This document shows, in pieces, positions 27,176 to 45,382 of a stretch of 45,382 nt of DNA. A model generated the notes under the pieces. The model ran no database searches. It was given only the letters and a program-made list of their open reading frames with translations, and was not told the DNA's origin. The translations under genes were made by a program, and so were the position numbers. This DNA comes from a virus. The stretch lies in IMG/VR virus record IMGVR_UViG_3300021963_008114, positions 1-45,382 of that record; one strand, written 5' to 3'. Positions within the stretch are counted from its first letter, which is position 1, and every line of letters starts with the position of its first letter.

Positions 27176-27210
27176 AATAATTATAGGCTAATAAATGGAG
27201 ATTTACACCT

Positions 27211-27423
27211 ATGATTAATCTTGACAAATACATACAACAGGTATGGAAAGCAGAAACTACAGAAAAGAAGCGAGAAGCTTTCAAAGAGCTTCTCGCAGTT
27301 TCCCATGCTAAGACAGAAACTAAAGTAAAAGCGCTTAGAGATATTCAAACTCTTTCAGGTAAAAAACTTGACAACTTTGCTACAAATTTTGCCTTTTCTG
27401 GTTATGGACTTAAGGTAAAGTAA
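27211..27423 (+). CDS. Small hypothetical protein heading the dpdA operon
   Basis: A 70-residue basic helical protein is the first gene after the repeat-associated promoter. The segment TEKKREAFKELLAVSHAKTETKVKALRDIQTLSG predicts two helices, followed by a short hydrophobic end. No family is recognised. It is one base away from the nuclease-like gene at 27425 and should be cotranscribed with dpdA. Confidence 0.75.
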   Translation: MINLDKYIQQVWKAETTEKKREAFKELLAVSHAKTETKVKALRDIQTLSGKKLDNFATNFAFSGYGLKVK

Positions 27424-27424
27424 T

Positions 27425-28647: not shown

Positions 28648-29192
28648 AACCTTGGATTGCGCTCTTTAGTAATACTGGTAGCGAGCTCAAAAGGATCTGC
28701 GATCATTTTGATATATGGCCTACATCTGTAATTACTAATAACTTTAACTCGGATGATTGGCGTCATAATATTCCAGAAGATATTGTGACAATGATGTCGC
28801 CCAGCGCTATTCACGCTGGATTTAAGCATATGTATAAAAGGCAGTTTGTTACTCTACATGGGTATATGAGAATATTGCCTCCAGAAGCATGTGAAATGCA
28901 TGATGTATATAATGGGCATCCAGGCGCTATTAATCTTTATCCTGAACTTAAAGGTAAAGACCCTCAAGAGCGAGTATGGAATGATTTAGGTAAATATGAG
29001 TTTATTGGCTCAGTTGTGCATAAAGTTACTGAAGAGCTTGATGGTGGTGAAATTGTAAGTAAAGTATTTTGCGAAAACACTTGCATTTCTAAAGAAGAGC
29101 TCTATAATACAATTAGAGAAACTTCATTTAGATCATGGAAGAACTTTCTTTCAACTCATTTTGAGAGAGAGCTAGGAGTAAATAATGTCTGA
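28644..29192 (+). CDS. dpdN: Formyltransferase, probable dPreQ1 formyltransferase DpdN
   Basis: The 182-residue protein has the formyltransferase N-terminal fold: ALFSNTGSEL near the start, VTLHGYMRILPP (69-80), and the catalytic set N90 and H92 in YNGHPGAINLYP with D133 in TEELDGGEIVSK. It is shorter than PurN and lacks the tRNA-binding domain of Fmt. It overlaps dpdA by four bases and is followed by queF, so formylation of the aminomethyl group of preQ1 in DNA, as proposed for DpdN, is the best reading. A PurN-like purine role is the alternative. Confidence 0.82.
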   Translation: MKPWIALFSNTGSELKRICDHFDIWPTSVITNNFNSDDWRHNIPEDIVTMMSPSAIHAGFKHMYKRQFVTLHGYMRILPPEACEMHDVYNGHPGAINLYPELKGKDPQERVWNDLGKYEFIGSVVHKVTEELDGGEIVSKVFCENTCISKEELYNTIRETSFRSWKNFLSTHFERELGVNNV

Positions 29193-29430
29193 CGCAATTA
29201 AACCTGATCATTATAAGGCAGGTAATGCATTGTATAGCTGTATCGATGTTATTGAAGACCTTTGTAAAGGTACGAAGAACGATACGTTTACAGACTATAA
29301 TAGATTTCAAGCTTTTAAGTATATTTGGAGAGCAGGTAATAAAGATCCTGTACTTCAAGATCTTAAGAAAGCAGTTAGATTTTTAGAATTTGCTATTGCA
29401 TACGAGGAAAAGAAGAATGGTAAAAATTGA
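29185..29430 (+). CDS. DUF3310-family protein, copy 1
   Basis: The 81-residue protein has the small DUF3310 signature: KPDHYKAGNALYSCIDVIE, then FQAFKYIWRAGNKDPVLQDLKKAVRFLEFAI. DUF3310 proteins are widespread in phages, often beside nucleotide-metabolism genes, and have no firmly assigned reaction. A second copy lies 0.9 kb downstream on the other side of queF. It overlaps dpdN by eight bases. Confidence 0.85.
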   Translation: MSDAIKPDHYKAGNALYSCIDVIEDLCKGTKNDTFTDYNRFQAFKYIWRAGNKDPVLQDLKKAVRFLEFAIAYEEKKNGKN

Positions 29431-30367
29431 AGATATTGCATCAAAGCATTTAGGTAAAGCTGGTGATGGTTCAGTAGTTAAGCCTTATGTTACGCCAGAT
29501 AATATTGACCCTAGTCTTTTAGTAGGCGTTCCTCGTTATCTTAACCGCACCCAGTATGCAATTGATGAGAACATCCTTCCTTTTGAAGGTTTTGATACTT
29601 GGAATTGCTATGAGTTTTCTGCATTAACTGATAATGGGTTTCCTGTATGTGGAGTAATTCGTTGTGTATATTCTAGCAGCTCTAAGAATATTGTAGAGTC
29701 AAAGTCTCTCAAGCTTTATATGAACTCTTATAATATGGCAAGGCTTGGTAAAAGCGTTAAAGAGGTGACTGAAAACGCAGTTGCAACTATCCGTAAAGAT
29801 CTTGTAGAGGTTCTTGGATTAGCTGATGAAAATGATTTGAATGTTTCGTTTTGTGATGATCAAAGCCCTTCATATGAACCTATTAATGAGCCATATAAGT
29901 CAGCATTTGTTAAGCTTGAATATGTTAATGACATTGAAAGTATGACGTTTGATCATTATAATGAAGATCCTAAGATTCTTCAAGTTATACCAACTAATAA
30001 TTCATCGGTAGAGTTTAAATGGAAGTCATCTGTACTTCGCTCTAATTGTAGAGTAACTAATCAACCCGACTGGGGTGATGTTTTTATTTCTATTAAAGGC
30101 GATAATACAATTACTTCAGAATCTTTACTCCAATACTTAGTATCTATGCGTAAAGAAAATCACTTTCACGAAGAAATTTGTGAATGCATTTATAAGAGAT
30201 TATATGATCTACTTAATCCAGAAGAGTTGTTTGTAGCTTGTCTTTATACACGTAGAGGCGGTATAGATATTAATCCAGCTCGCGCTACTAATAAAGAGGT
30301 AGTTATGAAACATGCTTCTATGCTTTATAATTCATCAATTAATAATATTAAAACTTTGAGGCAATAA
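29417..30367 (+). CDS. queF: NADPH-dependent preQ0 reductase QueF, bimodular
   Basis: ATG 29417 follows GAGGAAAAG, giving 316 residues. QueF reduces the nitrile of preQ0 to the amine of preQ1. The bimodular type is shown by the NADPH-binding ESKSLKLYMNSYN (94-106) in the first half and by SNCRVTNQPDWG (209-220) in the second, with catalytic cysteine 211 and aspartate 218; NHFHEE (249-253) and YTRRGGIDINP follow. It is about 30 residues longer than E. coli QueF at the N-terminus. With it the phage can make preQ1, not only preQ0. Confidence 0.95.
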   Translation: MVKIEDIASKHLGKAGDGSVVKPYVTPDNIDPSLLVGVPRYLNRTQYAIDENILPFEGFDTWNCYEFSALTDNGFPVCGVIRCVYSSSSKNIVESKSLKLYMNSYNMARLGKSVKEVTENAVATIRKDLVEVLGLADENDLNVSFCDDQSPSYEPINEPYKSAFVKLEYVNDIESMTFDHYNEDPKILQVIPTNNSSVEFKWKSSVLRSNCRVTNQPDWGDVFISIKGDNTITSESLLQYLVSMRKENHFHEEICECIYKRLYDLLNPEELFVACLYTRRGGIDINPARATNKEVVMKHASMLYNSSINNIKTLRQ

Positions 30368-30780
30368 TGACAAAAGCTAGTAAGAGTAATATGTTTGAAA
30401 AGAGTGCAGCAGAAGAGCCGTTTTTAGCTACTATGGGTTCAACAGAACCGTTCGGTGCAGTAGGATCTTCTATTAGTGTAGATAACGTTAGCTTTACAAT
30501 GCAAGACCCTGCTTACATATCTACTCAGTACGATGTCAATCAAGAAACAGTAGATCATCCAGATCATTATGGTGGTGCTGATAATCCTTATGAAGCAATT
30601 AAGGTTATTCGCGCTTGGGACCTTGGATTTAGTTTAGGTAATACAGTAAAATATATTTCACGTGCAGGTAAGAAAGACCCTAATAAGCGACTTGAAGACT
30701 TGCAAAAAGCACTTTGGTATTTAGAAGAAGAGATTCAGTATGAATTTGCAAAAAGCCTTGGACCGCGTTCCGGATACTAA
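30367..30780 (+). CDS. DUF3310-family protein, copy 2
   Basis: The 137-residue protein has an N-terminal 55-residue polar extension, then the DUF3310 domain: DHPDHYGGADNPYEAIKVIRAW and NTVKYISRAGKKDPNKRLEDLQKALWYLEEEI. It is a distant paralogue of the protein at 29185. The start overlaps the queF stop (TAATG) and the end overlaps queC by 41 bases, placing it firmly in the deazaguanine operon. Confidence 0.85.
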   Translation: MTKASKSNMFEKSAAEEPFLATMGSTEPFGAVGSSISVDNVSFTMQDPAYISTQYDVNQETVDHPDHYGGADNPYEAIKVIRAWDLGFSLGNTVKYISRAGKKDPNKRLEDLQKALWYLEEEIQYEFAKSLGPRSGY

Positions 30781-31513
30781 ACATAATGTTATATCAGTTC
30801 TTTCCGGAGGACTCGACTCTACTATTATGACTTATATTCTTGTACGTAAGTATGGTGCAAATAGAGTCTTTGCACTTTCATATAACTACGGACAGAAGCA
30901 AAAAGTAGAACTTGAAATGGCAGCTAAGACATGTGAGTATCTTGGCGTAGCACATAAGGTTCTTGATCTAGGTATTCTAGGTGATATTGTTAAGAACGTC
31001 TCTGCTAACATTGGTGGCAGTGATGTTAATATGCCTACTATTAAGGATGTGCTTGGAGATCCTCAACCTAAGACATACGTACCCTTCCGTAATATGATTC
31101 TTAATTCATTAGCATTCTCATTTGCAGAAGCTAATAAAGCAAGTCATGTGTTTACCGGATTACAAGTGCATGATGAATATGGTTATTGGGATACTACTCA
31201 GAAGTTTGTAGATAGTATGAATGCAGTAGCAGATCAAAATCGTACTCATAAAGTTAAACTAGAAGCGCCTTTTAGTCTTCTTTCTAAGTATGATGAACTT
31301 ATGATAGCTAAAGAACTAGGTAATGTTCGTTTAGAATATACTCTTACCTGCTATGATCCAGATGAACAAGGTCGTTCATGCGGTATTTGCCCGTCATGCT
31401 CTGAACGTCTTCAAAATTTTATTAAAGCAAATATGAGAGACCCTATTCAATATCAACCTGGTAGATCAGTTGAATGGGATAGATTTCTTTTTAAAGGTGG
31501 ATCAGATTATTAA
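30740..31513 (+). CDS. queC: 7-cyano-7-deazaguanine synthase QueC
   Basis: The 257-residue PP-loop ATPase turns 7-carboxy-7-deazaguanine into preQ0 with ammonia. SGGLDST (22-28) is the pyrophosphate loop; ALSYNYGQKQKVELE follows; FTGLQVHDEYGYWDTTQKFVDSMN matches the QueC substrate region. Near the C-terminus CYDPDEQGRSCGICPSCSER provides the four-cysteine zinc site. It appears complete. The stop overlaps the start of a glutamine amidotransferase gene by one base. Confidence 0.95.
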   Translation: MNLQKALDRVPDTKHNVISVLSGGLDSTIMTYILVRKYGANRVFALSYNYGQKQKVELEMAAKTCEYLGVAHKVLDLGILGDIVKNVSANIGGSDVNMPTIKDVLGDPQPKTYVPFRNMILNSLAFSFAEANKASHVFTGLQVHDEYGYWDTTQKFVDSMNAVADQNRTHKVKLEAPFSLLSKYDELMIAKELGNVRLEYTLTCYDPDEQGRSCGICPSCSERLQNFIKANMRDPIQYQPGRSVEWDRFLFKGGSDY

Positions 31514-32877: not shown

Positions 32878-33735
32878 ATGGAAATTAAAATTGAACTTGA
32901 AGAGCTAAGAAAGAAAAAGCTCTTTATTGCTACCCCGATGTATGGTGGTGCTTGTACAGGTATGTACACTCGCTCTATGTGTGATTTGACATCGATGCTA
33001 GTAAAGTATGGTATTGAAATGCGATCATACTTCCTATTTAATGAATCACTTATTACTCGTGCACGCAACTATTGCGTGGATGAATTCTTGCGTTCTGATT
33101 TTACACATCTTATGTTTATTGACTCTGATATTGGATTTAATCCTCAAGATGTTATTGCACTTTTAGCGTTGCAAGATGATAATTCACCTTATGATGTTAT
33201 CGGTGGACCTTATCCTAAGAAGTGTATTACATGGGAAAAGGTAAAGCAAGCAGTCGATAAGGGGGTTGCTGATAAAGATCCTAACGTACTTGAAGACTTT
33301 GTAGGCGACTTTGTTTTTAATCCTGTTATCGAAAACGGCGCTAAATCTAAAGAAATTCGTCTTGATGAGCCTGCAGAGGTTCTCGAGATTGGTACTGGAT
33401 TTATGATGATTCGTAAGAAGACATTCGATCAGTATGTGGCAGCTTATCCAGAAATTATGTATAAGCCTGATCATGTTCGTACTGCTGCGTTTGATGGGTC
33501 GCGTGAGATTGGAATGTATTTCCAAGCAGAGATCGATCCTGCATCTAAGCGTTATCTATCAGAAGATTATCTCTTCTGTCAAAACGTACGTAAGATGGGC
33601 GGTAAGGTATGGATTTGTCCGTGGATGCATATGGCGCATTCAGGCTTCTATACATTCAATGGTAAGCTTCCCGCTCTTGCTTCTATTGGTGCATCAGCTA
33701 CTGCTGATCCAGCGCTATTAAAGAATAAGAAGTAA
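32878..33735 (+). CDS. Glycosyltransferase (GT-A fold)
   Basis: The 285-residue protein has GT-A landmarks: FIATPMYGGACTGMYTRSMCDL at the start, SLITRARNYCVDEFL, and the DxD-type HLMFIDSDIGFNPQD (near 78-92), then GGPYPKK and a C-terminal YLSEDYLFCQNVRKMGG with acidic residues for acceptor binding. Homologues are frequent in marine T4-like phages just upstream of the clamp gene. The target could be DNA bases, phage proteins or host surface glycans; nothing here decides. The N-terminal 15 residues are a charged extension. Confidence 0.88.
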   Translation: MEIKIELEELRKKKLFIATPMYGGACTGMYTRSMCDLTSMLVKYGIEMRSYFLFNESLITRARNYCVDEFLRSDFTHLMFIDSDIGFNPQDVIALLALQDDNSPYDVIGGPYPKKCITWEKVKQAVDKGVADKDPNVLEDFVGDFVFNPVIENGAKSKEIRLDEPAEVLEIGTGFMMIRKKTFDQYVAAYPEIMYKPDHVRTAAFDGSREIGMYFQAEIDPASKRYLSEDYLFCQNVRKMGGKVWICPWMHMAHSGFYTFNGKLPALASIGASATADPALLKNKK

Positions 33736-33751
33736 TTAAAGGATATTTGTT

Positions 33752-34429
33752 ATGAAACTTAGTGAACAGACTATTAATATTTTAAAGAACTTTTCAGTTA
33801 TTAATAATAACTTGCTTGTTAACCCAGGTAATATTCTTACTACTGTTGCTCCACAATCACGTTCTGTGTACGCTAAAGCAAACGTAGAAGAAACCTTTCC
33901 AAGGCAATTTGCTATCTATGAACTGAATAAGTTTCTTGGTGTAGTATCTCTTTTCAAAGAACCAGAGCTTGAGTTTAGCGATATGTCAGTTAAGATTGTC
34001 TCAGGCAGACAATCAGTTAGTTATACATATGCAGACCCATCTATGGTTATTGCACCAGATCCTAATAAGGATATCAATTTTCCGACAGCAGATATTGAGT
34101 TCTCCATTTCTCAAGAAGAGCTCCAGCGCGTCGTAAGGGCTGCAGGTGTTCTTCAGTTGCCGGAAATTGCAGTGACTGGTGATGGTGCGAACATTACCGT
34201 CACTGCTACTAATTCGAAGAATCCAACTACTGATGTGTTCAGTATTGAGGTAGGTGAGACTAGTCATACTTTTAATATGTTGATTAAAGCAGAAAATATT
34301 ATTAAGTTAATTTCTGCTAACTATGAAGTAAAGATTACATCGCGTGGACTAGCACAATTTAAGTCTAATAATGTAATCTATTATATTGCAACAGAAGCAA
34401 ACAGCACATTTAATAAGGATGAAAATTAA
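33752..34429 (+). CDS. gp45: Sliding clamp gp45
   Basis: The 225-residue protein matches T4 gp45 (228), the trimeric ring that tethers the polymerase and activates late promoters through gp55 and gp33. Start KLSEQTINILKNFSVINNNLLVNPGN and SVYAKANVEETFPRQFAIYELNKFLGVVSLF are characteristic, as is the end YYIATEANSTF. It follows a weak ribosome site (AAAGGATA). It lies upstream of gp44/gp62 as in T4, but with a VWA gene between. Confidence 0.95.
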   Translation: MKLSEQTINILKNFSVINNNLLVNPGNILTTVAPQSRSVYAKANVEETFPRQFAIYELNKFLGVVSLFKEPELEFSDMSVKIVSGRQSVSYTYADPSMVIAPDPNKDINFPTADIEFSISQEELQRVVRAAGVLQLPEIAVTGDGANITVTATNSKNPTTDVFSIEVGETSHTFNMLIKAENIIKLISANYEVKITSRGLAQFKSNNVIYYIATEANSTFNKDEN

Positions 34430-35022
34430 TGAACGTATATATTCTACTTGACAGATCAGGTTCTATGTCAAGTCTCTGGAATGAAGCAATTGGCGCTATC
34501 AATGCATACGTAAAAAAACTTGACAAGAAGACAAAGATCTTTTTATCAACTTTTGATAATGAAAGCTATGATGTTCTTCGTAACTCTAGTGTAAAAGAGT
34601 GGAAGGACATTAGTGAGGAGGAATCACATCCTAGAGGTATGACTCCTCTTTATGATTCTTGTGCACGCATTATGAATCGTGCAATAGAAGATAATAGTGA
34701 CAAGACTATATTGGTTGTAATGACTGATGGTTTTGAAAATTGTTCTAAAGAACATACTCGTGAACAAATTAAAGCTAAGATTAAAGACTTTGAAAAGAAG
34801 AACTGGGAAGTTGTTTTTCTCGGCGCTAACTTTGATAAGGTAGATTCAGTTGCATCTGATCTTGGTTTAGCGTATAATAAGTTCACAAATATTACTACAA
34901 ACAACCTCAGATCGTATATGACAGGTAGCCTTGCTGACGCTACTGTAGCATATACTACTACAGGTACTGCAGTAAATATTACTGACAAAGATAAGATGTC
35001 TGCTACTAAAGCATCAGTCTAA
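34429..35022 (+). CDS. Von Willebrand factor A domain protein
   Basis: The 197-residue protein begins NVYILLDRSGSMSSLW, with an intact metal-ion-dependent adhesion site DxSxS. The partner threonine lies in RGMTPLYDSC and the third metal contact in VVMTDGFENCS. A C-terminal tail of about 45 residues is rich in serine, threonine and alanine. It overlaps gp45 (TAATG). Single-domain VWA proteins in this place are seen in some phages of marine bacteria; partner and role are unknown. Confidence 0.9.
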   Translation: MNVYILLDRSGSMSSLWNEAIGAINAYVKKLDKKTKIFLSTFDNESYDVLRNSSVKEWKDISEEESHPRGMTPLYDSCARIMNRAIEDNSDKTILVVMTDGFENCSKEHTREQIKAKIKDFEKKNWEVVFLGANFDKVDSVASDLGLAYNKFTNITTNNLRSYMTGSLADATVAYTTTGTAVNITDKDKMSATKASV

Positions 35023-35055
35023 TCTTTTATTTTATATTATGAAAATGGTGAAAAA

Positions 35056-35997
35056 ATGGTACGTGATGAATTCTTGTGGGTCGAGAAGTATCGTCCCAAG
35101 ACTATAGATGATTGTGTACTACCAGACAGCTTAAAGCAAACTTTTAAGCAGTTTATTGCTGGTGGTGAAATTCCTAATCTACTTCTCACAGGCGGGCCCG
35201 GCGTTGGTAAAACGACCGTGGCTCGCGCTATGTTAGAACAGATTGGGTGTGATTATATTGTTATTAACGGGAGCATGAATGGCAACATCGACACGCTTAG
35301 AAATGAAATTCAGCAGTTCGCCTCAAGTATCTCTTTTAGTGGGGGACGAAAATACGTCATCCTTGACGAAGCAGATTACCTTAATGCAAATTCAACCCAA
35401 CCCGCACTTAGAAATTTCATGGAAGAATATTCCAAAAATTGCGGATTCATCCTTACATGCAACTTTAAAAATAGAATTATTGAACCGCTACATTCTAGGT
35501 GCTCTGTCGTAGAGTTTAAGATTGCTAAAACAGATTTACCTAAACTTGCTATGCAGTTTTTCAAGCGGGTAGTAGGTATTCTTGATAAAGAAAATATAGG
35601 CTATGATAAATCAGTAGTGGCTGAACTAATTAATAAACATGTACCTGATTGGCGTCGAGTTCTTAATGAGCTTCAACGTTATTCTGCTACAGGTAGTATT
35701 GATTCTGGTATCTTTATTAATCTTAGTGAAGAGAATTTTAAAAGTCTTATATCAATGCTTAAAGCTAAAAACTTTGCAGAGATGCGTAAATGGGTAGGTG
35801 AGAATAGTGATTCAGATTCTACATCTGTATTTCGCAAGTTTTATGATCAAGCCTATCAGTATATTAAACCTAGTTCTATTCCTGAACTAGTTGTGCTTAT
35901 TAGTAAGTATCAATATCAAGCTGCATTTGTAGCTGATCATGAAATTAACTTAACTGCATTCTTAACTGAGTGTATGATTACTGTTGAGTTTATCTAA
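35056..35997 (+). CDS. gp44: Clamp loader large subunit gp44
   Basis: The 313-residue AAA+ ATPase matches T4 gp44 (319). It opens and closes gp45 on primer junctions. Motifs: WVEKYRPKTIDDCVLP near the start, Walker A TGGPGVGKTT (near 46-55), Walker B VILDEADYL (near 99-107), sensor FILTCNFKNRI and the arginine finger in EPLHSRCSVVEF. The part at about 35190-35460 uses more G/C-ending codons than its flanks. It ends with TAATG overlapping gp62. Confidence 0.95.
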   Translation: MVRDEFLWVEKYRPKTIDDCVLPDSLKQTFKQFIAGGEIPNLLLTGGPGVGKTTVARAMLEQIGCDYIVINGSMNGNIDTLRNEIQQFASSISFSGGRKYVILDEADYLNANSTQPALRNFMEEYSKNCGFILTCNFKNRIIEPLHSRCSVVEFKIAKTDLPKLAMQFFKRVVGILDKENIGYDKSVVAELINKHVPDWRRVLNELQRYSATGSIDSGIFINLSEENFKSLISMLKAKNFAEMRKWVGENSDSDSTSVFRKFYDQAYQYIKPSSIPELVVLISKYQYQAAFVADHEINLTAFLTECMITVEFI

Positions 35998-36410
35998 TGA
36001 ATCCGTTTGATTTTGTTAACGCTATTAATGGCAAAAAGCAAGACATCATTAGAGCATCTGACAACCCTGATCTTGCTGAGAAGCAATATATACCTTTTAT
36101 TATTAATAAAGCATTCTCATATCATATCGATACAGTACTTTACTCAAATGAGATGAATAAAGCAGCTCATATTGATTCTAAACTCCAAAACGACTATTAC
36201 CTAAATAGTATACGCACTGGAAAGCGTTTCTCTAAGTGGCATAAGCGCCAGGAAAACTTAGATATAGACGTTATTCAGGAATATTTTAAAGTAAACTATT
36301 TAAGAGCTACTGAGATAGCAAAATTGCTATCAAAGGAACAGCTCGACCTTATAAGAATAAGAATAACAAAAGGTGGTAATAATGAGCTTCGATCTAAGTC
36401 AGCTAGTTGA
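35997..36410 (+). CDS. gp62: Clamp loader small subunit gp62
   Basis: The 137-residue protein lies between gp44 and regA as in T4, where gp62 is the single clamp-loader subunit that bridges the gp44 tetramer. It is shorter than T4 gp62 (187). The best match is TGKRFSKWHKR, comparable with T4 GKRYGKWAK, and an N-terminal helical region NPFDFVNAINGKKQDI. Similarity is weak otherwise, so the call rests strongly on position. Confidence 0.85.
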   Translation: MNPFDFVNAINGKKQDIIRASDNPDLAEKQYIPFIINKAFSYHIDTVLYSNEMNKAAHIDSKLQNDYYLNSIRTGKRFSKWHKRQENLDIDVIQEYFKVNYLRATEIAKLLSKEQLDLIRIRITKGGNNELRSKSAS

Positions 36411-36777
36411 AGTGAGATTAAAGAATGCTGAAGATTTTCTCAAAGTTCGCGAAACTTTATCTCGAATCGGCTTAGCGTCAAAAAAAGACAACACTCTTTA
36501 TCAGTCATGCCATATTCTACATAAACAAGGCAAATATTATATTGTGCATTTTAAAGAGTTGTTTATGCTTGACGGTAAAGAAGCAACCTTCTCAGAAGGT
36601 GATATTGCTAGACGTAACAGAATTGTTACGCTTCTAGATGAATGGGAGTTAATAGAAGTTGTTGATAACAGTAAAATATTAAATCCTATTGCACCCCTTA
36701 ATCAGATTAAAATTATTCCTTTCAAAGAAAAGAATAGCTGGAATCTCATTACTAAATACACTATAGGTGGAAGATAA
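36382..36777 (+). CDS. regA: Translational repressor RegA
   Basis: ATG 36382 follows AAGGTGG and gives 131 residues. The protein matches T4 RegA (122), which binds ribosome sites of early phage mRNAs: VRLKNAEDFLKVRETLSRIG, then YQSCHILHKQGKYYIVHFKELF and the end WNLITKYTIGG. It overlaps gp62 by 29 bases. In T4, gene 43 (polymerase) follows; here a radical SAM island does. Early mRNAs with AT-rich starts in this window are possible targets. Confidence 0.94.
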   Translation: MSFDLSQLVEVRLKNAEDFLKVRETLSRIGLASKKDNTLYQSCHILHKQGKYYIVHFKELFMLDGKEATFSEGDIARRNRIVTLLDEWELIEVVDNSKILNPIAPLNQIKIIPFKEKNSWNLITKYTIGGR

Positions 36778-36795
36778 CTATATAAAGTTTTTGTT

Positions 36796-37866
36796 ATGTA
36801 TAATTATGATGATGTTAGAGTAGTTCATTTAGAAATTACTCAAAAGTGTCAAGCTTCCTGTCCGATGTGTGACAGAAATCAAAATGGGGGCTTAATCAAC
36901 CCCCATCTTTCTTTAGCTGAACTCTCCCTAGAGAATTGTAAGCAAATATTTGAGCCTGCTTTTATTAAGCAGCTTAACTATATGTATATGTGTGGTAATT
37001 TAGGTGATCCTATTATTGCCAATGATACACTAGAAGTATTTGATTACTTTCGCACACATAACCCTAATATGAAACTAAGCATGAATACTAACGCTGGCGC
37101 AAGAAACCAGCAATGGTGGCGAGATCTTGCTAAAGTATTAGGGCCGAAAGGAATGGTAAGATTCTCTATAGATGGGTTAGAAGATACTAATCATATCTAT
37201 AGGAGAGGAGTTCAATGGGATAATGTAATGAGTTCTCTTACTAGCTTTATTGACGCTGGTGGTAATGCTATATGGGATTATTTAATATTTGATCATAATG
37301 CACATCAAGTAGAAGAAGCAAAAAAATTATCAGTTAATCTAGGTGTAAAAACTTTTGTAGAAAAGAAAACATCTAGATTCTATAGTACAGCAAAAACATC
37401 TCTTAAAGATACTCATACTGTAAAAGATCGTAAAGGTAACGACCAATATGATCTAAAACCAGTAGATACACCTCTTAATAATAAAATTAATAATACTATA
37501 GATAAGCATGGTAGCTTGTCCAACTATTATGATACAACAGAAATTGTTTGTAAAGTAAAAGAACAAAAAAGTATTTTTATTACTGCTGAAGGTCTAGCAA
37601 TGCCTTGTTGCTGGACTGCTTCCCGTATGTATAAGTGGTGGCATAAAGACCCTAAAGTAGAACAAGTGTGGCAATTTATTAAAGATACAGATAGAATAAA
37701 CGTTCTTAAGCACGGTATTAAAAATGTGCTTAATAATGGTGTATTTCAAGATATAGAAGTAAGCTGGGGGCTTCAATCAGTAGCTGAAGGTAAACTGAAA
37801 GTATGCTCTGAGAAATGTGGTAAAGAGTTTGATCCGTTTAAGGAACAATTTGTTAATGCAAAATAA
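36796..37866 (+). CDS. Radical SAM protein 1 of island, with C-terminal Cys-rich region
   Basis: The 356-residue protein begins VRVVHLEITQKCQASCPMCDRN, with the CX3CX2C iron-sulfur motif at C18, C22, C25. A SAM-binding region and FSIDGLEDTNHIYRRGVQWDNV, common to peptide- or sugar-modifying radical SAM enzymes, follow. The C-terminal part has AEGLAMPCCW and KVCSEKCGKEF, suggesting an auxiliary SPASM-like cluster. Substrate unknown. It has no clear ribosome site before ATG 36796 and starts 18 bases after regA. The style resembles enzymes acting on peptides, but that is inference. Confidence 0.85.
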   Translation: MYNYDDVRVVHLEITQKCQASCPMCDRNQNGGLINPHLSLAELSLENCKQIFEPAFIKQLNYMYMCGNLGDPIIANDTLEVFDYFRTHNPNMKLSMNTNAGARNQQWWRDLAKVLGPKGMVRFSIDGLEDTNHIYRRGVQWDNVMSSLTSFIDAGGNAIWDYLIFDHNAHQVEEAKKLSVNLGVKTFVEKKTSRFYSTAKTSLKDTHTVKDRKGNDQYDLKPVDTPLNNKINNTIDKHGSLSNYYDTTEIVCKVKEQKSIFITAEGLAMPCCWTASRMYKWWHKDPKVEQVWQFIKDTDRINVLKHGIKNVLNNGVFQDIEVSWGLQSVAEGKLKVCSEKCGKEFDPFKEQFVNAK

Positions 37867-39259
37867 AATATCATCTACATTCTGCGCTTTACCTTGGGTA
37901 CATTTAAGCACAAGACCTGACGGTTCAATGCGAGTGTGTTGCACAGCTAATGCATCAGGAGTACAAGATCCTGATAGTAGTAAGCGTGTTAATGGTGGTA
38001 ATGCAGGTATAGTTAAGAATCAAAATAATATGCCAGCTAATCTCAACCACACATCACTTAATGATGCGTGGAATAATGAATACATGTGCAACGTGCGTAA
38101 AACAATGCTTAAAGGTGAAAAGCCAACTTCTTGTCTCAAATGCTATAAAGAAGAAGAAGCAGGTGTTATCAGTAAACGTCAATGGGAAACTGATTACTGG
38201 GGTAAAATATTTGATCTTAATGAGATAGTATCGGAGACTAAAGAAGATGGTTCTATTCCAGCAAAAATTAGATATTTAGATCTTAGACTAGGTTCTAAAT
38301 GTCAGCTTGCATGTGTTATGTGTTCACCGCATGATAGTTCAGGTTGGGTAAAAGAATGGAATGAAATTTATCCTAAGATTGAAAATGAAAATTTAAAACG
38401 TAATAGTAATTGGCATATGAAGGGCCAAGTAGGTGGTGCTAGCTATAACTGGCATCTTAATAATCCTACATTCTGGGAAGAGCTTTATGAGCAGATTCCT
38501 CATATGTATCAACTATACTTTGCTGGTGGTGAAAGCACTATCATTAAAGAACATTATCTTCTTCTGGAAGAGTGTATCAAAAGAGGATATGCAAGCCAAA
38601 TTGAACTTAGATATAACTCTAACGGACTTGAATTACCTGAAAAGCTTTTCGAGCTTTGGTCGCATTTTAGGTTAGTTAAATTTCATTTTTCTATAGATGC
38701 ATTTGGCAAGCAGAACGAATATATTCGTTATCCTACTGATTGGAAGACTATAGAAAATAACTTACACATTCTTGATAATACCCCTGATAATGTAGAAGTA
38801 ACAATAGCTTGTACCTTGATGGCATTAAACATATATTATTTTCCAGATTTTATTAAATGGAAATTAACCCAAGGGTTTAAGAAAATTAATAAATATCCAT
38901 ACGGTGCTGGAACTATTAATACTCATTTTGCGTATTATCCTCCTCAGCTTAACGTCAAGGTTCTTCCTAAAGAATTCAAACAAAAAGTCGTTGACAAATA
39001 CGAAAACGATTTCTTTCCTTGGTTAGAAGAAAACTGGAAATTTGCAACAGGTATTCCAGATACAGTTAGTAAAGAAAAATGGTTTAGTGAAAATTATAGT
39101 ATTAAAAGATTTAAAAGCATTTTGAGCTTTATGAATAAAGAAGACTGGAGTCAAAGATTACCAGAGACTGCAGAATGGATTAAACGTATAGATCAAACTC
39201 GTATGTTAAATTTTTATGAACATTTTCCAGATTATGATTGGTTAAAAAAATATGAGTAA
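37856..39259 (+). CDS. Twitch-type radical SAM protein 2 of island
   Basis: ATG 37856 overlaps the previous gene by 11 bases; the product has 467 residues. The N-terminus carries FCALPWVHLSTRPDGSMRVCC (C10, C28, C29), then CLKCYKEEEAG (C93, C96), a Cys-rich 'twitch'-like cluster domain placed before the radical SAM core rather than after it. The core has SKCQLACVMC (C149, C153, C156) and YFAGGESTII. Proteins of this plan are known as N-terminal twitch radical SAM proteins, without an established reaction that I know. The genes at 39252 and 41454 share the layout. Confidence 0.87.
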   Translation: MQNKISSTFCALPWVHLSTRPDGSMRVCCTANASGVQDPDSSKRVNGGNAGIVKNQNNMPANLNHTSLNDAWNNEYMCNVRKTMLKGEKPTSCLKCYKEEEAGVISKRQWETDYWGKIFDLNEIVSETKEDGSIPAKIRYLDLRLGSKCQLACVMCSPHDSSGWVKEWNEIYPKIENENLKRNSNWHMKGQVGGASYNWHLNNPTFWEELYEQIPHMYQLYFAGGESTIIKEHYLLLEECIKRGYASQIELRYNSNGLELPEKLFELWSHFRLVKFHFSIDAFGKQNEYIRYPTDWKTIENNLHILDNTPDNVEVTIACTLMALNIYYFPDFIKWKLTQGFKKINKYPYGAGTINTHFAYYPPQLNVKVLPKEFKQKVVDKYENDFFPWLEENWKFATGIPDTVSKEKWFSENYSIKRFKSILSFMNKEDWSQRLPETAEWIKRIDQTRMLNFYEHFPDYDWLKKYE

Positions 39260-40595
39260 GACGTTTTGTCCTATGCCTTGGAACTCAGTTAATCTCCGTA
39301 ATAATGGAGATATGCGAGTATGTTGTAATGCTAACTCATATACAAAAAATAAAGGTATCCTAAGAAAAGAAGATGGTACTGCTTTTAATATTGGTAAAGA
39401 TGATATTAATGAAGCAAGAAATTCGGTTACTTTAAAAGATATTAGATCTACTATGCTTAAAGGTGAGTGGCATTCAGAATGTGAGCGCTGCCGCCAAGAA
39501 GAAACTAATGGCATTAAGAGTAGAAGAGAATATGAAAATGAACTCTGGGATAAGGTAGAAGAAAATATCAAAGACAAAACTTCTGAAGACGGTACTATTA
39601 TAGCAGAAGAAATACCTATTGACTATTTTGATATTAGATATGGCAATTTTTGTAATTTAAAATGTAGAATGTGTGCTCCTACTGAATCACATACTTGGTA
39701 TAATGATTATGTTGAGTTATACGGTATTAATAAATTTAAAGATACACATGACACTATTGTACTAGAAAAAAATAGTAAGGGTAGATGGTCAACTAATCAA
39801 TATGATTGGTTTAAGAATTCTAATCATTATTGGAATCAATTTGAAAAATATACTAAAGATGCTAAGAAACTCTATATTGTCGGCGGTGAGCCTCTTATTA
39901 TTGAAGAGCATTTAGATTCTTTAGAGAGACTAATTTTTAGCGGTAGAGCTAATGAAATATCTATTGAATACAATACTAATTTAACAAATGTACCCCAGCG
40001 CATTATTAAACTTTGGGAACATTTTAAGCAGATTAGAATTGGCGCGTCTATAGATGGATTTGGTGATGTATTTGAATATCAAAGAACACCTGCTAATTGG
40101 GAAAGCGTATATGAAAATATGCTTAAATTAGACTCTCATACTAATATTAATTTAGTAGGATGGTTTGCTTATACAGTAACACCATTTAATATTTTTCATC
40201 TTCCTGAATTTATGAAATGGAAATTATCTGATAGCAAACTTAACAGATTTAATACTACTAGAGGTGCTCGTAAAGTAATATCACATCATATGTGTCACGC
40301 ACCTAGACATTATAATGTTAAGTGTTTACCAGACGAATTAAAACAACAAATTGATAAACATTTTGATGAATATAAAGAATGGGCTAAGAGTCAACCGGAA
40401 GATGTATATAAAGATTTCTGTAAATTACTAAATGGTGTTTCTCGTTTTATGAATTCAGAGAGTTACTTTGATCCTCATTTTGCAGAATTTATTGATATTA
40501 CAGCTAAGCTTGATAAAATAAGAAATCAGGATGTGAGAAAAATTGTACCACAATTTACAAAATACTTCGATGCATATTACGAACGAGAATCTTGA
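39252..40595 (+). CDS. Twitch-type radical SAM protein 3 of island
   Basis: The 447-residue protein begins SKTFCPMPWNSVNLRNNGD with MRVCC (C6, C24, C25), then CERCRQEETNGIKSRREYE (C77, C80), then the core cluster NFCNLKCRMC (C134, C138, C141) and YIVGGEPLIIEEHL. It is a paralogue of the gene at 37856: the order of Cys blocks, GGE motif, DxFG-type SIDGFGD and the late EFMKWKL segment all correspond. It overlaps the previous gene by eight bases. Substrate unknown. Confidence 0.87.
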   Translation: MSKTFCPMPWNSVNLRNNGDMRVCCNANSYTKNKGILRKEDGTAFNIGKDDINEARNSVTLKDIRSTMLKGEWHSECERCRQEETNGIKSRREYENELWDKVEENIKDKTSEDGTIIAEEIPIDYFDIRYGNFCNLKCRMCAPTESHTWYNDYVELYGINKFKDTHDTIVLEKNSKGRWSTNQYDWFKNSNHYWNQFEKYTKDAKKLYIVGGEPLIIEEHLDSLERLIFSGRANEISIEYNTNLTNVPQRIIKLWEHFKQIRIGASIDGFGDVFEYQRTPANWESVYENMLKLDSHTNINLVGWFAYTVTPFNIFHLPEFMKWKLSDSKLNRFNTTRGARKVISHHMCHAPRHYNVKCLPDELKQQIDKHFDEYKEWAKSQPEDVYKDFCKLLNGVSRFMNSESYFDPHFAEFIDITAKLDKIRNQDVRKIVPQFTKYFDAYYERES

Positions 40596-41463
40596 TTGCT
40601 GTATAGTAACATTATTTTTACATAACGTTTGTAATTATAAATGCTCTTATTGTAACGATTATCATAGAGATGGTTCATATAGGTGGCCTGAAAAATGGGA
40701 TGCTTATATTAATTTAATCGATAAAGTAAAGCAAAATAACAAATATGTTTATGTAGAGGTATTAGGCGGTGAACCTACACTCTGGCCTAAATTTCAAGAA
40801 TTTGTAGACTACATTAGTAGTGATAATGTTTTTGTAGAATATTCTACAAATGCTTCTCGTACTTTAAATTACTGGAGCAAATTTAAAACACATAGAGCAT
40901 TTGCTTTTTTATCTTGGCATTATGAATTTGCTGATGACGATCATTTTTTTAAAGTAGCAGAAATAATGCAGCATAAAGCTTCCGTATCTATACCTCTTAT
41001 GATTATACCTGATAATTTTGAAAGAGCAAAAGTTTTATATGAGAGATTAAAGCAATTAAATGTTGAGATTACTCCTAAATTTACTCGTACATCAATAAAC
41101 GGACATTCTTATTTTAATTATACAGAAGAACAAAAAGAATGGATTACTAATAATAGTTTTAATAAAATGAAATCGTTTGGTATTGATTGGGTTATACCTC
41201 GCAATTTGCATTTTAACGGTCAACCAATAAAATTTATGAACGTATTAGATAAGCAGATGCATAAATTTAAAGGTTATACTTGTACTGCAGGTATAAAAAG
41301 ACTTATGATCGATCCTAATGGAGATATTAAACGTTGCACTAAGAGAGTAGGAGGTGTAGTAGGTAATATATTTAACGACTATACTTTACCTGATTCACCT
41401 ATTGTATGTACGTATGATGCTTGTCCATGTAAACTAGATGCTATTGTTGAAAAATGGATTTAA
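40570..41463 (+). CDS. Radical SAM/SPASM-like protein 4 of island
   Basis: I place the start at ATG 40570 within the previous gene (297 residues); a TTG at 40543 is possible. The core cluster is NVCNYKCSYCND (C21, C25, C28), followed by VLGGEPTLWPKF. The C-terminus shows YTCTAGIKRLMIDPNGDIKRCTKRVGGVVGNI and CTYDACPC, the cysteine layout of a SPASM auxiliary-cluster domain. Such enzymes often modify peptides (crosslinks, epimers) or act as maturases. The overlap of 26 bases implies tight coexpression. Confidence 0.85.
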   Translation: MHITNENLDCCIVTLFLHNVCNYKCSYCNDYHRDGSYRWPEKWDAYINLIDKVKQNNKYVYVEVLGGEPTLWPKFQEFVDYISSDNVFVEYSTNASRTLNYWSKFKTHRAFAFLSWHYEFADDDHFFKVAEIMQHKASVSIPLMIIPDNFERAKVLYERLKQLNVEITPKFTRTSINGHSYFNYTEEQKEWITNNSFNKMKSFGIDWVIPRNLHFNGQPIKFMNVLDKQMHKFKGYTCTAGIKRLMIDPNGDIKRCTKRVGGVVGNIFNDYTLPDSPIVCTYDACPCKLDAIVEKWI

Positions 41464-42824
41464 AAGATATTAAAATAACTAAATTAAAAGATAATTTTAC
41501 AGATCAATTTGGTCTTAAAGATCCTTCATGCATTAATAAATTTGCATGGAGTACAATTCATATGTCTATTGGTGAGACAATGAGTTGTCATAGAGTAGAT
41601 GGTGATAAATTATCAGCAGATAATTTTAGTAATTTTCATAACACCCCTTCTAAAATAAAAGATAGAGAAAGAATGATTAACGGTTTATGGCCAGATACAA
41701 ATGGTCCTAACCCTATTGGGCCACATAAAGGTTGTGAGGTTTGCCGAGAAGTAGAAGCTGCAGGTGGAATTAGCGATAGAATTTCTGATAATGAAGATAA
41801 ACATTTATTAAAAAAAGTTCCTAAAGAAATAAAAGCAGATAATAAGGCTACTACAGTTACTCCTACTATATTAGAGGTATTTTATAATAATCAGTGTAAT
41901 CTAGCTTGCATTTATTGTGCACCTAAATTTAGTTCATTAATTGCCGCAGAAAGTTACAGACACGGTACTAGAACAGAAGAGCTAACAAAGGTATTAGAAT
42001 TTAGAAAAGATTATAAACAACTAGTAGATGCTCATTTTGCATGGATGAAAGATAATGCAAAATTTTTATACAGGTATAATATATTAGGCGGGGAGCCTTT
42101 TTATCAGCCAGAACTAGAACAAAATATAGATTTTTTTATGGATAATAAATGCCCTAATTTAAAAATATCTATATTCTCAAATCTTAATATCGATAAAGAT
42201 AAATTTAGATCTAAATTAAATAGATTATCTTATCTAGTAAAGAACAAACATGTTAACGTTATTACATTGCATTGTAGTTTTGATTGCTGGGGGCCTCAAA
42301 TAGAATATATTAGACACGGACTTAATTTACAAAAATGGGAAGAAAACTTTTTAATTTTACTTAACGAGTTTCCTGATATAGAAGTTATCATTCATAGCAC
42401 TCTTACTGCAATTACATTTTCTACTTTTCCAGAATTAGTTGATCGTATTAAAAATTGGTCATCTATAAGGACTATAAGACATACTATTTCAACTGTTGAT
42501 TCAAGACCGTTTTTATATCCTGGTATTTTACCTGAAGAAAATTATAAAAGTCAAATACAAGAATCAATAAAAATTTATTTAGAAACTATTAATGTCATTA
42601 AAAACACTAATTACAAATATGAATATGATAATCAAGAAAAAATACATGCTATAGCACATATTCATAGAGTTATTGCGCAATTAAAAAGCTATGAAAAAAC
42701 ATTTGATAAGCACAGTAAGGATAAATTTCAAATTGGTAAGCTTATAGATTTTCTCAACATTAATGACTCTCGAAGAAACACTAATTGGAAATTATTATGG
42801 CCGTGGTTAGATATGAAGATATAA
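41454..42824 (+). CDS. Twitch-type radical SAM protein 5 of island, divergent
   Basis: The 456-residue protein has the N-terminal plan of the two twitch-type neighbours but altered: C26 in SCINKFAWSTIH, a single cysteine in ETMSCHR (C45) where the others have CC, and CEVCREVEAAGGI (C94, C97). The core cluster is NQCNLACIYC (C148, C152, C155), with NILGGEPFYQPE. The region FDCWGPQIEYIRHG corresponds to DxFG in the paralogues. The change at C45 may alter the auxiliary cluster and so the substrate. Confidence 0.85.
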   Translation: MDLKDIKITKLKDNFTDQFGLKDPSCINKFAWSTIHMSIGETMSCHRVDGDKLSADNFSNFHNTPSKIKDRERMINGLWPDTNGPNPIGPHKGCEVCREVEAAGGISDRISDNEDKHLLKKVPKEIKADNKATTVTPTILEVFYNNQCNLACIYCAPKFSSLIAAESYRHGTRTEELTKVLEFRKDYKQLVDAHFAWMKDNAKFLYRYNILGGEPFYQPELEQNIDFFMDNKCPNLKISIFSNLNIDKDKFRSKLNRLSYLVKNKHVNVITLHCSFDCWGPQIEYIRHGLNLQKWEENFLILLNEFPDIEVIIHSTLTAITFSTFPELVDRIKNWSSIRTIRHTISTVDSRPFLYPGILPEENYKSQIQESIKIYLETINVIKNTNYKYEYDNQEKIHAIAHIHRVIAQLKSYEKTFDKHSKDKFQIGKLIDFLNINDSRRNTNWKLLWPWLDMKI

Positions 42825-43714
42825 CTTTAGATATGCTTGGCACAAAACGTCAAAGGCCAATGTATCTTAGTACTTTTACTAGAAGTAGATACGATATGGA
42901 TATGAAAACATATCCAAAAGACCCTCATGAATATACAAAATATTTTTTACATTCTATAGATCAATGGATTAAAAACCACCAGTTAATAAAGTATTTAAAT
43001 TTACACACATTTAGTCGTAAAGATGCTATTTTAGGAACCACTCAACAGTTAGACGAATTACATTTACTTCATGGTAAAAAAATAGTAGTTTTTAAAGGTG
43101 AATACAAATATCATAGAAGACTTACTGATTTTAATATTAAACAGATACAATCGTATAAAGAATTACAACGAGGAGATGTTTTAATATTATCATATCCATC
43201 ATGTATAACAACAAATTATGTTAAAGATTTTCATGAACTTTTAGAATGGTGTTTTAGAGAACAAATTGAAGTTCATATAGATGGAGCATGGTTCGGGCAG
43301 TGTAAAAATTTTATATTAGATGTAGAGCATCCAGCAATACGTTCATTAAGCGTATCATTGTCTAAAGCTTTTGGAATGGGCAGTCAACGCATAGGCATTC
43401 GTTATACCAGAGAAAAAATTAACGGTCCAATTTCAATAATGAATGATTATGGTTATGTAAATGTTAGTGATATGTGGATTGGTGTACATATGATTGATAA
43501 GTACGGCACTGATTTTTGGTGGAAAAATTATAACCATTTATATTTAAAAGTATGCAACGACTTTAATTTAGAACCATCTGATAGTATTCATGTAGCATGG
43601 AAAGATAAAGCTTTATTAGGTATTAGAACTCCCCTTAGAATGTTAATTGATAATATTTTTGATGAAAGAGGAACTGATAAAGGGCTTAATGAGATTGAAA
43701 GAAACGAAAAATAA
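42797..43714 (+). CDS. PLP-dependent enzyme, aminotransferase fold type I-like
   Basis: ATG 42797 (MAVVRYE) lies inside the previous gene; the product has 305 residues. VHIDGAWFGQ gives aspartate 162 for the pyridine nitrogen and SVSLSKAFGMG gives lysine 190 for the Schiff base, spaced as in fold type I enzymes; SQRIGIRYTRE follows. At 305 residues it is shorter than usual (about 380-400), missing part of the C-terminal small domain. It may transaminate or decarboxylate an amino acid or a sugar made by the island's radical SAM enzymes. Confidence 0.75.
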   Translation: MAVVRYEDITLDMLGTKRQRPMYLSTFTRSRYDMDMKTYPKDPHEYTKYFLHSIDQWIKNHQLIKYLNLHTFSRKDAILGTTQQLDELHLLHGKKIVVFKGEYKYHRRLTDFNIKQIQSYKELQRGDVLILSYPSCITTNYVKDFHELLEWCFREQIEVHIDGAWFGQCKNFILDVEHPAIRSLSVSLSKAFGMGSQRIGIRYTREKINGPISIMNDYGYVNVSDMWIGVHMIDKYGTDFWWKNYNHLYLKVCNDFNLEPSDSIHVAWKDKALLGIRTPLRMLIDNIFDERGTDKGLNEIERNEK

Positions 43715-44397
43715 TGTATAAATTTGGCGTTTATAATTTTAATAATAATTTAGATTATCATATTCAAAAAAGTAAAAATGTTTTTGATAACAGCACAGAT
43801 GTAAAACTTACAGGAAGTAAAAATTTAAATAGTTTTTATTCTATTAATTCGATAGAAGTAAAAAAAGATCTTAATAATTATTTAAACGATACTCTTGATA
43901 CAAAATTAGATTGGAATTTTGAGTATTTTAAATCAGGAGAGCCTGCAGGGCTTCATACAGACTATGATATAACACCATGGGATAATAGGACCAGCTGTAG
44001 AATAGATGTTGGTGTTATAATTCCATTATTCTGGAATTGTAAACAGCCTTATACTTTGATGTATAATAGAATAGCAGATACTCCCAGAAAATTAATTTAT
44101 CGTAAAGGTGAAATGAGATATAAAGATACTAATGAGATTATTTCATATAGAGATAAATGGGAATTTGATAATCAAGTATTAGAATTTAATCCTAAAAATA
44201 CTCAATATTATAATGAGTATGCAGATTTAAAATTAGACAGTGTTTATGAATGGAAAATCTCTACAATGTTAGTATTTGATACTAGAAGGTGGCATTCATC
44301 TTCTTGGTTTTTATCAACTAATGAACTTCCAGAAAAAGTAAGTGAATATAAATGCTCTATTATAGGTTTTGGTTCGGTAGATGTTCCGTGCAATTAA
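43714..44397 (+). CDS. Probable 2OG-Fe(II)-type oxygenase in radical SAM island
   Basis: The 227-residue protein starts in TAATG overlap with the PLP enzyme. PAGLHTDYDI gives an HxD metal pair (H81, D83), CRIDVGVIIPLFWN resembles the strand after it, and MLVFDTRRWHSSSW gives a distal histidine (H194), all in the order of iron/2-oxoglutarate oxygenases or cupins. No clear arginine for 2-oxoglutarate can be fixed. It is not close to the two other oxygenases in the window. The combination with radical SAM and PLP enzymes suggests one biosynthetic path. Confidence 0.65.
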   Translation: MYKFGVYNFNNNLDYHIQKSKNVFDNSTDVKLTGSKNLNSFYSINSIEVKKDLNNYLNDTLDTKLDWNFEYFKSGEPAGLHTDYDITPWDNRTSCRIDVGVIIPLFWNCKQPYTLMYNRIADTPRKLIYRKGEMRYKDTNEIISYRDKWEFDNQVLEFNPKNTQYYNEYADLKLDSVYEWKISTMLVFDTRRWHSSSWFLSTNELPEKVSEYKCSIIGFGSVDVPCN

Positions 44398-45382
44398 ACA
44401 AGTAGAAGGTGGTGTTTTTAGTGTTGTATGGGATTTAGGAAGAAGATGTTCCTATTCATGCTCTTATTGTGGACCTCATCATAATAATAAATGGTCTCCT
44501 AATGCAAGTTTAGAAGATCTTAAAATAACTATGAATGGTATAGCTAGGTATACTAGCCTTCTTAATAAACATCGAAAAATACCTAAGAAAACTTCTATTA
44601 ATTTTACGGGCGGTGAACCTACTATTAACCCTCACTTTTTTGAGTTCATAGAACACATTAAAAAGAACTATCCTTCAGTAGGAATTAATTTAACTACTAA
44701 TGGTTGTTATAATGAAAAGAAATGTGATTTAATTTTAAAGTATGTTCATTGTGGCACTATAAGCTACCATGTTGAAGCATCTGATCAAGAAAAAAAATTA
44801 GTTCATGCTAATATAGAAAAAATGAAATTAAACAATTTTGATTTCAGTGTTAATCTTATGATGCATAAAGATTATTTTGATGAGTGTATAAAAGTCTCTG
44901 AATGGCTAGATTCTATTAACGTTAAGTATAAACCTAGAGTAATAGGCGATTCAAATAATTTAAAAGATATTGAAGATGGAACTGCTCACATTTATAATGA
45001 GCAGCAACTTAGTTGGTTTAAATCCTATTGGAATAAAAATAAACAAAAAGTTAATAACGATGCTAAGTCATGCGAGGTTGCTACTAAACTTGGAAGACCT
45101 TGTTGTGCGGGTAAAAAATTAGAACTTCTTATAGACGATGAATGGCAAGCAGGTACATTTGTTCCAGATACTAATTTTTATGAATGGAGTTGTATGGTTA
45201 ACTGGCATTTTCTTTTTATTAATAGTGAACTTGATGGTGTGTGGCATCATCAAACTTGCCAAGTTAATTTAGATGGACAGGTAGGCCCAATAGGTAAAGC
45301 AAGCGATTTTAATTCTATTATAGCAAACCTAGAACAAAAATTTAATCAAAATAATATTAATTTAATAAAGTGTCCAAAATCT
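44381..45382 (+). CDS. Radical SAM protein 6 of island (3' end outside window)
   Basis: The frame is open from ATG 44381, inside the previous gene, to the window edge (334 residues visible). The cluster motif is RRCSYSCSYCG (C23, C27, C30), followed by NFTGGEPTINPHF and LTTNGC. Later blocks include RPCCAGKKLELLID and HHQTCQVNLDGQVGP, which look like auxiliary cysteine-binding sites. It lacks the N-terminal twitch-like domain. The island continues to the right, so the number of genes given here is a minimum. Confidence 0.85.
   Translation, partial: MFRAIKQVEGGVFSVVWDLGRRCSYSCSYCGPHHNNKWSPNASLEDLKITMNGIARYTSLLNKHRKIPKKTSINFTGGEPTINPHFFEFIEHIKKNYPSVGINLTTNGCYNEKKCDLILKYVHCGTISYHVEASDQEKKLVHANIEKMKLNNFDFSVNLMMHKDYFDECIKVSEWLDSINVKYKPRVIGDSNNLKDIEDGTAHIYNEQQLSWFKSYWNKNKQKVNNDAKSCEVATKLGRPCCAGKKLELLIDDEWQAGTFVPDTNFYEWSCMVNWHFLFINSELDGVWHHQTCQVNLDGQVGPIGKASDFNSIIANLEQKFNQNNINLIKCPKS

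Follow-up and report, generated by a model that had tools for sequence, protein, structure and literature searches.

A radical SAM enzyme island downstream of regA in a T4-like virus unites two gene modules that recur in viral relatives and in Bdellovibrionota

Gene content of the island

The IMG/VR record IMGVR_UViG_3300021963_008114, a linear viral sequence of 45,382 bases analysed over its whole length (the window), carries recognisable T4-like genes including the head genes gp22/gp23, a UvsW-type helicase, gp46, gp45, gp44, gp62 and regA, and its gp23 is closest to those of Stenotrophomonas DLP6 and of Methylophilales and Pelagibacter myophages (62-72%). A run of radical S-adenosylmethionine (rSAM) genes begins 19 bp past regA. 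Eight open reading frames (ORFs) on the + strand follow regA in the order R1, R2, R3, R4, R5, PLP, OG and R6, comprising six rSAM genes, a pyridoxal phosphate (PLP)-like enzyme and a 2-oxoglutarate (2OG)/Fe(II) oxygenase-like protein (Table 1). This island unites two conserved modules, which also occur apart, and its gene content points to an uncharacterised viral biosynthetic pathway.

Table 1. Coordinates and evidence for the island genes, regA and examples of the 75-aa protein
Feature	Description	Position	Strand	Evidence or remark
regA	T4 translational repressor, left border of the island	36373..36777	+	PF01818 147 bits on 36400-36774; phrog_242; exact start codon uncertain
R1	rSAM with C-terminal Cys-rich (SPASM/twitch-like) region, module A core	36796..37866	+	PF04055 29.6 bits, SPASM 16.6 bits
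R2	N-terminal-twitch rSAM, module A core	37856..39259	+	NF033640 422 bits
R3	N-terminal-twitch rSAM, module B core	39252..40595	+	NF033640 368 bits
R4	Short rSAM, module B	40570..41463	+	PF04055 43.2 bits; weakly like STM4011/PapB/viperin models
R5	Divergent N-terminal-twitch rSAM, most exchanged gene	41454..42824	+	NF033640 202 bits
PLP	Small fold-type-I PLP-like enzyme, module B	42797..43714	+	HIDxAW + SLSKA motif; no Pfam or PDB sequence match
OG	2OG/Fe(II) oxygenase-like protein, module B	43714..44397	+	HTD...H triad; no family match
R6	rSAM, open at contig end	44381..45382	+	PF04055 46.7 bits; weakly like MoaA/viperin models
75-aa protein	Beside R1 in viral relatives (examples)	L017:12490-12711, L001:4204-4428		

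The motif CX3CX2C was present in all six rSAM proteins and all matched the Pfam radical SAM model PF04055 (E 1e-6 to 7e-14). Four of them passed the cut-off of this model; R2 and R5 fell slightly below it, yet above that of the NCBIfam model NF033640 'N_Twi_rSAM' (curated cut-off 170 bits), which was reached by R2, R3 and R5 and not by R1, R4 or R6. Membership of the prokaryotic viperins was rejected, as the best score against NF038283 was 39.1 bits (R6) relative to a cut-off of 180 bits. The PLP assignment is based on the motif HIDxAW...SLSKA, invariant in nine relatives, and on a tblastn search in which an annotated 'putative aminotransferase' of phage Mosig gave a weak match (E 6e-5); searches of Pfam and of PDB sequences, including one with a PLP profile against PDB, gave no match. 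In OG, H81-T-D83 and H194 were invariant in seven relatives, while the model searches gave no family match and a PDB search with an OG profile was also empty.

Each junction past R1 is an overlap of 1 to 28 bp, which leaves no space for an additional gene. A repeat-coded core peptide was sought in the window island and only weak short repeats were seen, and a scan for promoters and terminators gave no clear excess over shuffled sequences. A preliminary description of the window had placed six consecutive, overlapping rSAM genes here, after regA, and noted a PLP and a 2OG-type gene and the lack of a precursor-peptide gene. The ORFs, motifs and PF04055 matches bear out the six genes, family model matches agree with the identification of regA, gp62, gp44 and gp45 upstream, and the profile search that it had proposed returned, besides the matches above, a SPASM match for R1. 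The PLP and 2OG-type assignments stand on the motifs given above, and with the genes overlapping no precursor gene was found in the island.

Exchange and selection within the island

A sister record in IMG/VR (G006, 56,762 bases) encodes proteins upstream of R1 that are mostly 97-100% identical to those of the window (one small ORF, 94%). Identity was 99% for R1, 98% for R2, 87% for R3, 85% for R4, 43-48% for R5, 71% for PLP, 66% for OG and 69% for R6. As identity falls within the island while the flank is near-identical, island content has been exchanged. The sister has a methyltransferase gene between PLP and OG and an R6 copy of 391 aa (sister gene 17), past which lie another twitch rSAM, two QueC-like PP-loop proteins and two more rSAM proteins. 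Farther along are a possible sulfotransferase (by eye), an Asp/Asn-hydroxylase-like protein, a GNAT protein and three rSAM proteins of the B12 type, one of which was checked against a model; the run closes with genes for a class-III aminotransferase, a SET protein and a third PP-loop protein. Pfam registers 12 rSAM hits in the sister island, which is about 22.7 kb long and ends near 27.9 kb of the record.

The ratios of nonsynonymous to synonymous substitution rates (dN/dS) between window and sister were 0.012 for R1, 0.012-0.081 across R1-R4, 0.12 for PLP, 0.15 for R6, 0.27 for OG and 0.43 for R5, values being less reliable at the larger divergences. The island genes are under purifying selection. 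Degraded copies, which the preliminary description had named as grounds for abandoning its account, were ruled out by the intact reading frames and low dN/dS.

The interval between regA and the polymerase gene

The DNA polymerase gene (gp43) of the sister is found approximately 37 kb past regA, downstream of the island and of curli-type genes. The latter (CsgG-like, repeat proteins, FecR-like and adenylate-cyclase-like, all by eye) occupy 33270-38661 of the reverse complement of the sister record, between the island and gp43. Of 37 informative loci found through gp44, one had gp43 no more than 300 bp from regA, five had it farther away but still within 2 kb, and ten had it at a greater distance; the other 21 showed no polymerase over 2 kb or more of sequence downstream of regA. 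As these distances differ so among relatives, the regA-gp43 gap is a variable locus in this lineage. In G279, one of the relatives, an R1-like and an N-terminal-twitch (N_Twi) rSAM gene lie in the gap and a PP-loop gene comes right after gp43. Replacement of gene 43 was rejected, as the polymerase is present downstream in the sister; the proposal that the island stands in place of the polymerase is therefore correct in that gp43 is displaced from regA, a displacement common in relatives, and incorrect as to substitution.

Two modules in viral relatives

Module A consists of R1 and R2 with a GT-A-fold glycosyltransferase (GlyTx), a methyltransferase-like protein (MTrep) and a 75-aa protein, usually in the order GlyTx-MTrep-small-R1-R2, where small is the 75-aa ORF. 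Module B consists of R3-R4-(R5)-PLP-OG. Since the gene families were defined from these same phages, the counts below describe association rather than unbiased frequency, and as near-duplicate contigs (e.g. G001, G002 and G005) were included they refer to loci and not to independent lineages.

Forty-seven flanked loci anchored on R1 contained GlyTx in 46, R2 in 44, the 75-aa ORF in 43 and MTrep in 38. When anchored on the small ORF (49 flanked loci), R1 was found in all 49, R2 and GlyTx in 48 each and MTrep in 40; 33 small-ORF contexts read GlyTx-MTrep-small-R1-R2-PPloop and 24 others GlyTx-MTrep-small-R1-R2. The 36 flanked loci anchored on PLP, at 50% identity or above, contained R3 (35/36), a PP-loop protein (33/36), R2 (27/36), R4 (24/36) and OG (21/36), and four of them had R2-R3-R4-PLP-OG-R6, close to the window order. 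Scattering of the genes with no co-occurrence, the second condition under which the preliminary description would have been given up, was ruled out by this strong co-occurrence in viral relatives and in the bacterial genomes described below. Its proposal of one operon and one pathway is supported as to a tight, overlapping and co-occurring run, and not as to a single pathway, there being at least two modules that are also found separately.

R1 relatives were encoded in at least 591 viral stretches and relatives of the 75-aa protein in at least 487, counts which indicate that this chemistry is widespread among environmental (aquatic) viruses. A Gp23-type capsid protein was present in 12 of the 19 module-A virus records tested, the other seven including the sister fragment, which is without that region; T4 neck protein and regA gave no matches in module-A virus records, but the positive controls were unmatched too. 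A virion-like or tail-fibre-like protein lay in the same stretch in 67 of 110 R1 loci over 12 kb. One of the virion-like neighbour families has a PHROG virion-structural match and the others were assigned by eye, as were two recurrent kinds of neighbour that look GT8-like and tail-fibre-like. Relatives also carry amidinotransferase-like, carbamoyltransferase-like, nitroreductase, SDR and sugar-nucleotide-type genes (several by eye). Thirteen records first found via PLP or OG had 4-22 rSAM matches apiece. In the very large virus record G010 (518,643 bases) there are 22 rSAM matches, distributed over two or more distinct clusters.

Counterparts in Bdellovibrionota

Among cellular sequences, those closest to R3 came from assemblies of Bdellovibrionia and Bacteriovoracaceae and reached 46% identity. 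In a sample of the phylum Bdellovibrionota, 14 of 241 genomes carried R1, and within about 9 kb of it were R2 (10/14), R9, the sister's gene at 18647-19750 (10/14), MTrep (8/14), R3 (7/14) and GlyTx (6/14). R1, R2 and R9 occur together in this phylum, sometimes on long contigs with housekeeping-like genes, R3-PLP pairs were found on two chromosomes (L050 and L112), and GT2-like genes lie alongside the Bdellovibrionota versions. Bdellovibrionota rows were apart from viral rows in the R1 and R2 trees, with window and sister on a long viral-side branch. Contigs L042, L045, L055, L057 and L062 from metagenome-assembled genomes, which have R2 and mostly R1, resemble binned viral contigs and were excluded from the cellular evidence.

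Features of the encoded proteins

Alignments of the N_Twi proteins showed conservation of four N-terminal cysteines, the rSAM motif and GGE. In R3, C6, C25, C77, C80 and C134/C138/C141 were invariant, and C25 was nearly invariant in a wider alignment. The N-terminal four-Cys part of the N_Twi profile weakly matched the C-terminal twitch of BtrN (E 0.004), while the profile core matched viperin, SkfB and BlsE. The AlphaFold model of R3 had a predicted local distance difference test score (pLDDT) of 89.5. A profile search with R1 gave weak NifB hits only.

GlyTx was modelled with a pLDDT of 83 and a predicted template modelling score (pTM) of 0.63, and the top PDB hits of the model were nearly all glycosyltransferases (E about 3e-5) with low TM-scores; the GlyTx profile found nothing among PDB sequences. 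MTrep looks like a Rossmann-type methyltransferase by eye only, and its profile gave only chance-level hits to PDB sequences; no database match supports the methyltransferase reading. In the set of G001, G003, G007, G008 and G009, MTrep has variable tandem N-terminal segments with units like DLRRAVIEQNLHSIFRLV, and GlyTx of G001 has repeats of about 100 aa; these repeats may be substrate-like or structural. The 75-aa ORF follows MTrep and precedes R1, at a median spacing of -7 bp to the latter, and its product is conserved along its entire length without a hypervariable core, with no family match and no match in phage isolates.

Proposed pathway and alternatives

The most likely, although tentative, reading of these genes, and the simplest, is that the product is an unusual glycan or glycoconjugate that would change the virion or host surface. 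The substrate class, step order and biological role that we infer are as follows. The island, lodged in the variable regA-gene 43 interval of a T4-like phage, would encode tailoring enzymes that act one after another on a small building block, be it a sugar, a nucleotide-sugar or a related compound. The rSAM enzymes may carry out C-H chemistry such as radical dehydrogenation, epimerisation or deoxygenation, the PLP enzyme an amination, the 2OG enzyme a hydroxylation and the PP-loop proteins an ATP-dependent amidation-type chemistry or activation, with methyl or acyl group transfer as a further step. A glycosyltransferase would then transfer this product onto glycans or glycoproteins of the virion or of the surface of the infected cell, and cassette swaps could alter surface chemistry in the manner of serotype loci.

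The glycan reading is favoured because GlyTx recurs in module A, virion-like neighbours are present and glycosyltransferase genes lie near the bacterial copies. The extra tailoring genes of relatives represent chemistry common in glycan clusters, the weak BtrN match of the N_Twi profile is to a sugar-alcohol oxidiser, and a single auxiliary cluster, as predicted for the N_Twi enzymes, is usual in twitch enzymes that act on small molecules. In pelagimyophages, rSAM cassettes are part of a host recognition region rich in glycosyltransferases (PMC7029224). Several points weigh against it. The most serious is that the GlyTx component of module A is unseen in what is known of this phage's sequence: a search of window and sister, both of them fragments, found neither GlyTx nor MTrep nor the 75-aa ORF. 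Neither GlyTx nor MTrep scores above the cut-off of any Pfam family, the island adjoins replication genes and not tail genes, and modules A and B may serve different products. The substrate class of rSAM enzymes is also not readable from sequence, and the neighbours of the R3 model, all at a TM-score of about 0.33, include viperin as well as enzymes acting on sugar nucleotides (BlsE) and on peptides (SkfB and anSME).

A different explanation, which we consider unlikely, is that the rSAM enzymes modify a peptide or protein, acting on the 75-aa protein or a virion protein to give a product like a ribosomally synthesised and post-translationally modified peptide (RiPP) or a modified structural protein. 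The position of the 75-aa ORF directly before R1 in 43 of 47 R1 loci would fit such a role, as would the SPASM-like C-terminus of R1, the many weakly matched rSAM models that are peptide maturases and the variable tandem segments of MTrep; the class-III aminotransferase of the sister best matches a daptide RiPP model, although far under its cut-off. This ORF is, however, lacking in the window island and in the Bdellovibrionota versions, its product has no hypervariable core, and the N_Twi cysteines suffice for one predicted auxiliary cluster and not two. Similarly doubtful is the broader proposal that the R1-R2 operon encodes a viral pathway of a class not yet described, for a natural product or glycoconjugate, in which the 75-aa protein serves as substrate or carrier, and that this pathway has a Bdellovibrionota counterpart and is present in hundreds of aquatic phages.

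A diffusible small molecule made during infection, e.g. a nucleoside or amino-acid analogue directed against competitors, host defence or host enzymes, is a less probable product still. The variety of tailoring enzymes resembles that of natural-product clusters, R4, R6 and R3 are weakly viperin/MoaA/BlsE-like, and Campylobacter phages pair five rSAM genes with a putative amidinotransferase (PMC2853527). Against this, scores to the viperin model were 15-39 bits with the cut-off at 180, neither an exporter nor a synthetase was recognised in the window island, and the recurrent neighbours are virion-like and glycosyltransferase-like genes.

Nucleotide or DNA hypermodification, in which the island would derivatise a base by building on the upstream 7-deazaguanine route, appears highly unlikely. 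FolE, QueD, QueE, QueC and QueF are all encoded in the window and the sister island includes PP-loop proteins with a Cys motif like that of QueC, while rSAM and PLP enzymes take part in phage thymidine hypermodification, which serves as a lead only. The FolE, QueD, QueE and QueC set by which a phage 7-deazaguanine pathway is recognised nevertheless lies within the window yet outside the island, the island PP-loop proteins score far below the QueC equivalog cut-off with the real QueC elsewhere, and modules A and B have counterparts near glycosyltransferases on bacterial chromosomes. HMUDK_hel, the hmdU kinase/pyrophosphorylase domain that marks thymidine hypermodification, was not found in ten relatives, a weak result as the positive control was also unmatched. 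That a recombination hotspot gathered unrelated auxiliary genes is very improbable: the interval is variable in relatives, content differs among near-identical phages and CP220/CPt10 differ in such clusters (PMC2853527), but gene order recurs across viral backbones, the association is also seen in bacteria, and the frames overlap and are under purifying selection.

Relation to known systems

The preliminary description had considered clusters of four or more rSAM genes rare in phages; for T4-like phages there are several precedents. Campylobacter phages CP220/CPt10 have 11-12 rSAM genes per genome, including a five-rSAM cluster with small tailoring genes that differs between otherwise similar phages (PMC2853527), the Tara T4-like marine virus TARA_ERS488813_N000010 has 12 (PMC5332604), and pelagimyophages have variable rSAM cassettes in a host recognition cluster as well as curli genes (PMC7029224). 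Multi-rSAM islands in T4-like phages are a known, unexplained feature (PMC2853527, PMC5332604, PMC7029224).

CP220/CPt10 resemble the phage of the window as T4-related phages with at least five rSAM genes in an exchangeable cluster (six in the window, 12 in the sister). They differ in that their clusters contain a putative glycine amidinotransferase, their proteins share about 23-26% identity with those of the window island, and modules A and B were not recognised there. As far as their descriptions allow, the Tara virus and the pelagimyophages are alike in being T4-like with up to 12 rSAM genes and variable cassettes, and the curli genes described for pelagimyophages (PMC7029224) have counterparts, by eye, in the sister; their rSAM genes were described as Fe-S-related auxiliary genes or host-recognition cassettes, without module structure or mechanism (PMC5332604, PMC7029224).

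The cultured Pelagibacter phage Mosig EXVC030M (L034, MT647606.1 44017-74610) has a related biosynthetic island close to tail-fibre genes. As in window and sister, there are annotated genes for a MoaA-like rSAM, a PLP aminotransferase (23.6% to the window PLP), an Asp/Arg hydroxylase-like protein, a methyltransferase and a GNAT protein, whereas only three rSAM-like genes are annotated, carbamoyltransferase and nitroreductase genes are added, and no match to R2 or R3 was found. Among characterised enzymes, BtrN (2-deoxy-scyllo-inosamine dehydrogenase) has the reverse domain order to the N_Twi proteins and its twitch match is marginal, and NF033640, whose cut-off R2, R3 and R5 exceed, is a subfamily name without a stated function.

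No description of the module structure or of the Bdellovibrionota link was found in the literature searched, the coverage of which is incomplete. T4-like multi-rSAM islands have been noted since 2010 without explanation, and the recurrent modules provide defined, testable units, with the Bdellovibrionota chromosomal counterparts offering a non-viral setting. Enzymologists, too, would take an interest in a new rSAM chemistry acting on glycans or peptides, if borne out.

Other features of the window

Outside the island, window positions 24994-31513 contain a complete 7-deazaguanine set (QueE-like, QueD, FolE, QueF and QueC), near which are a peptide deformylase (24211-24708) and a formyltransferase-like gene (28644-29192). 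Tandem repeats were observed at 2612-2737 (45 bp units) and 9313-9396 (about 25 bp units). An ORF between gp45 and gp44 (34429-35022) has a von Willebrand A-like start (LLDRSGSM).

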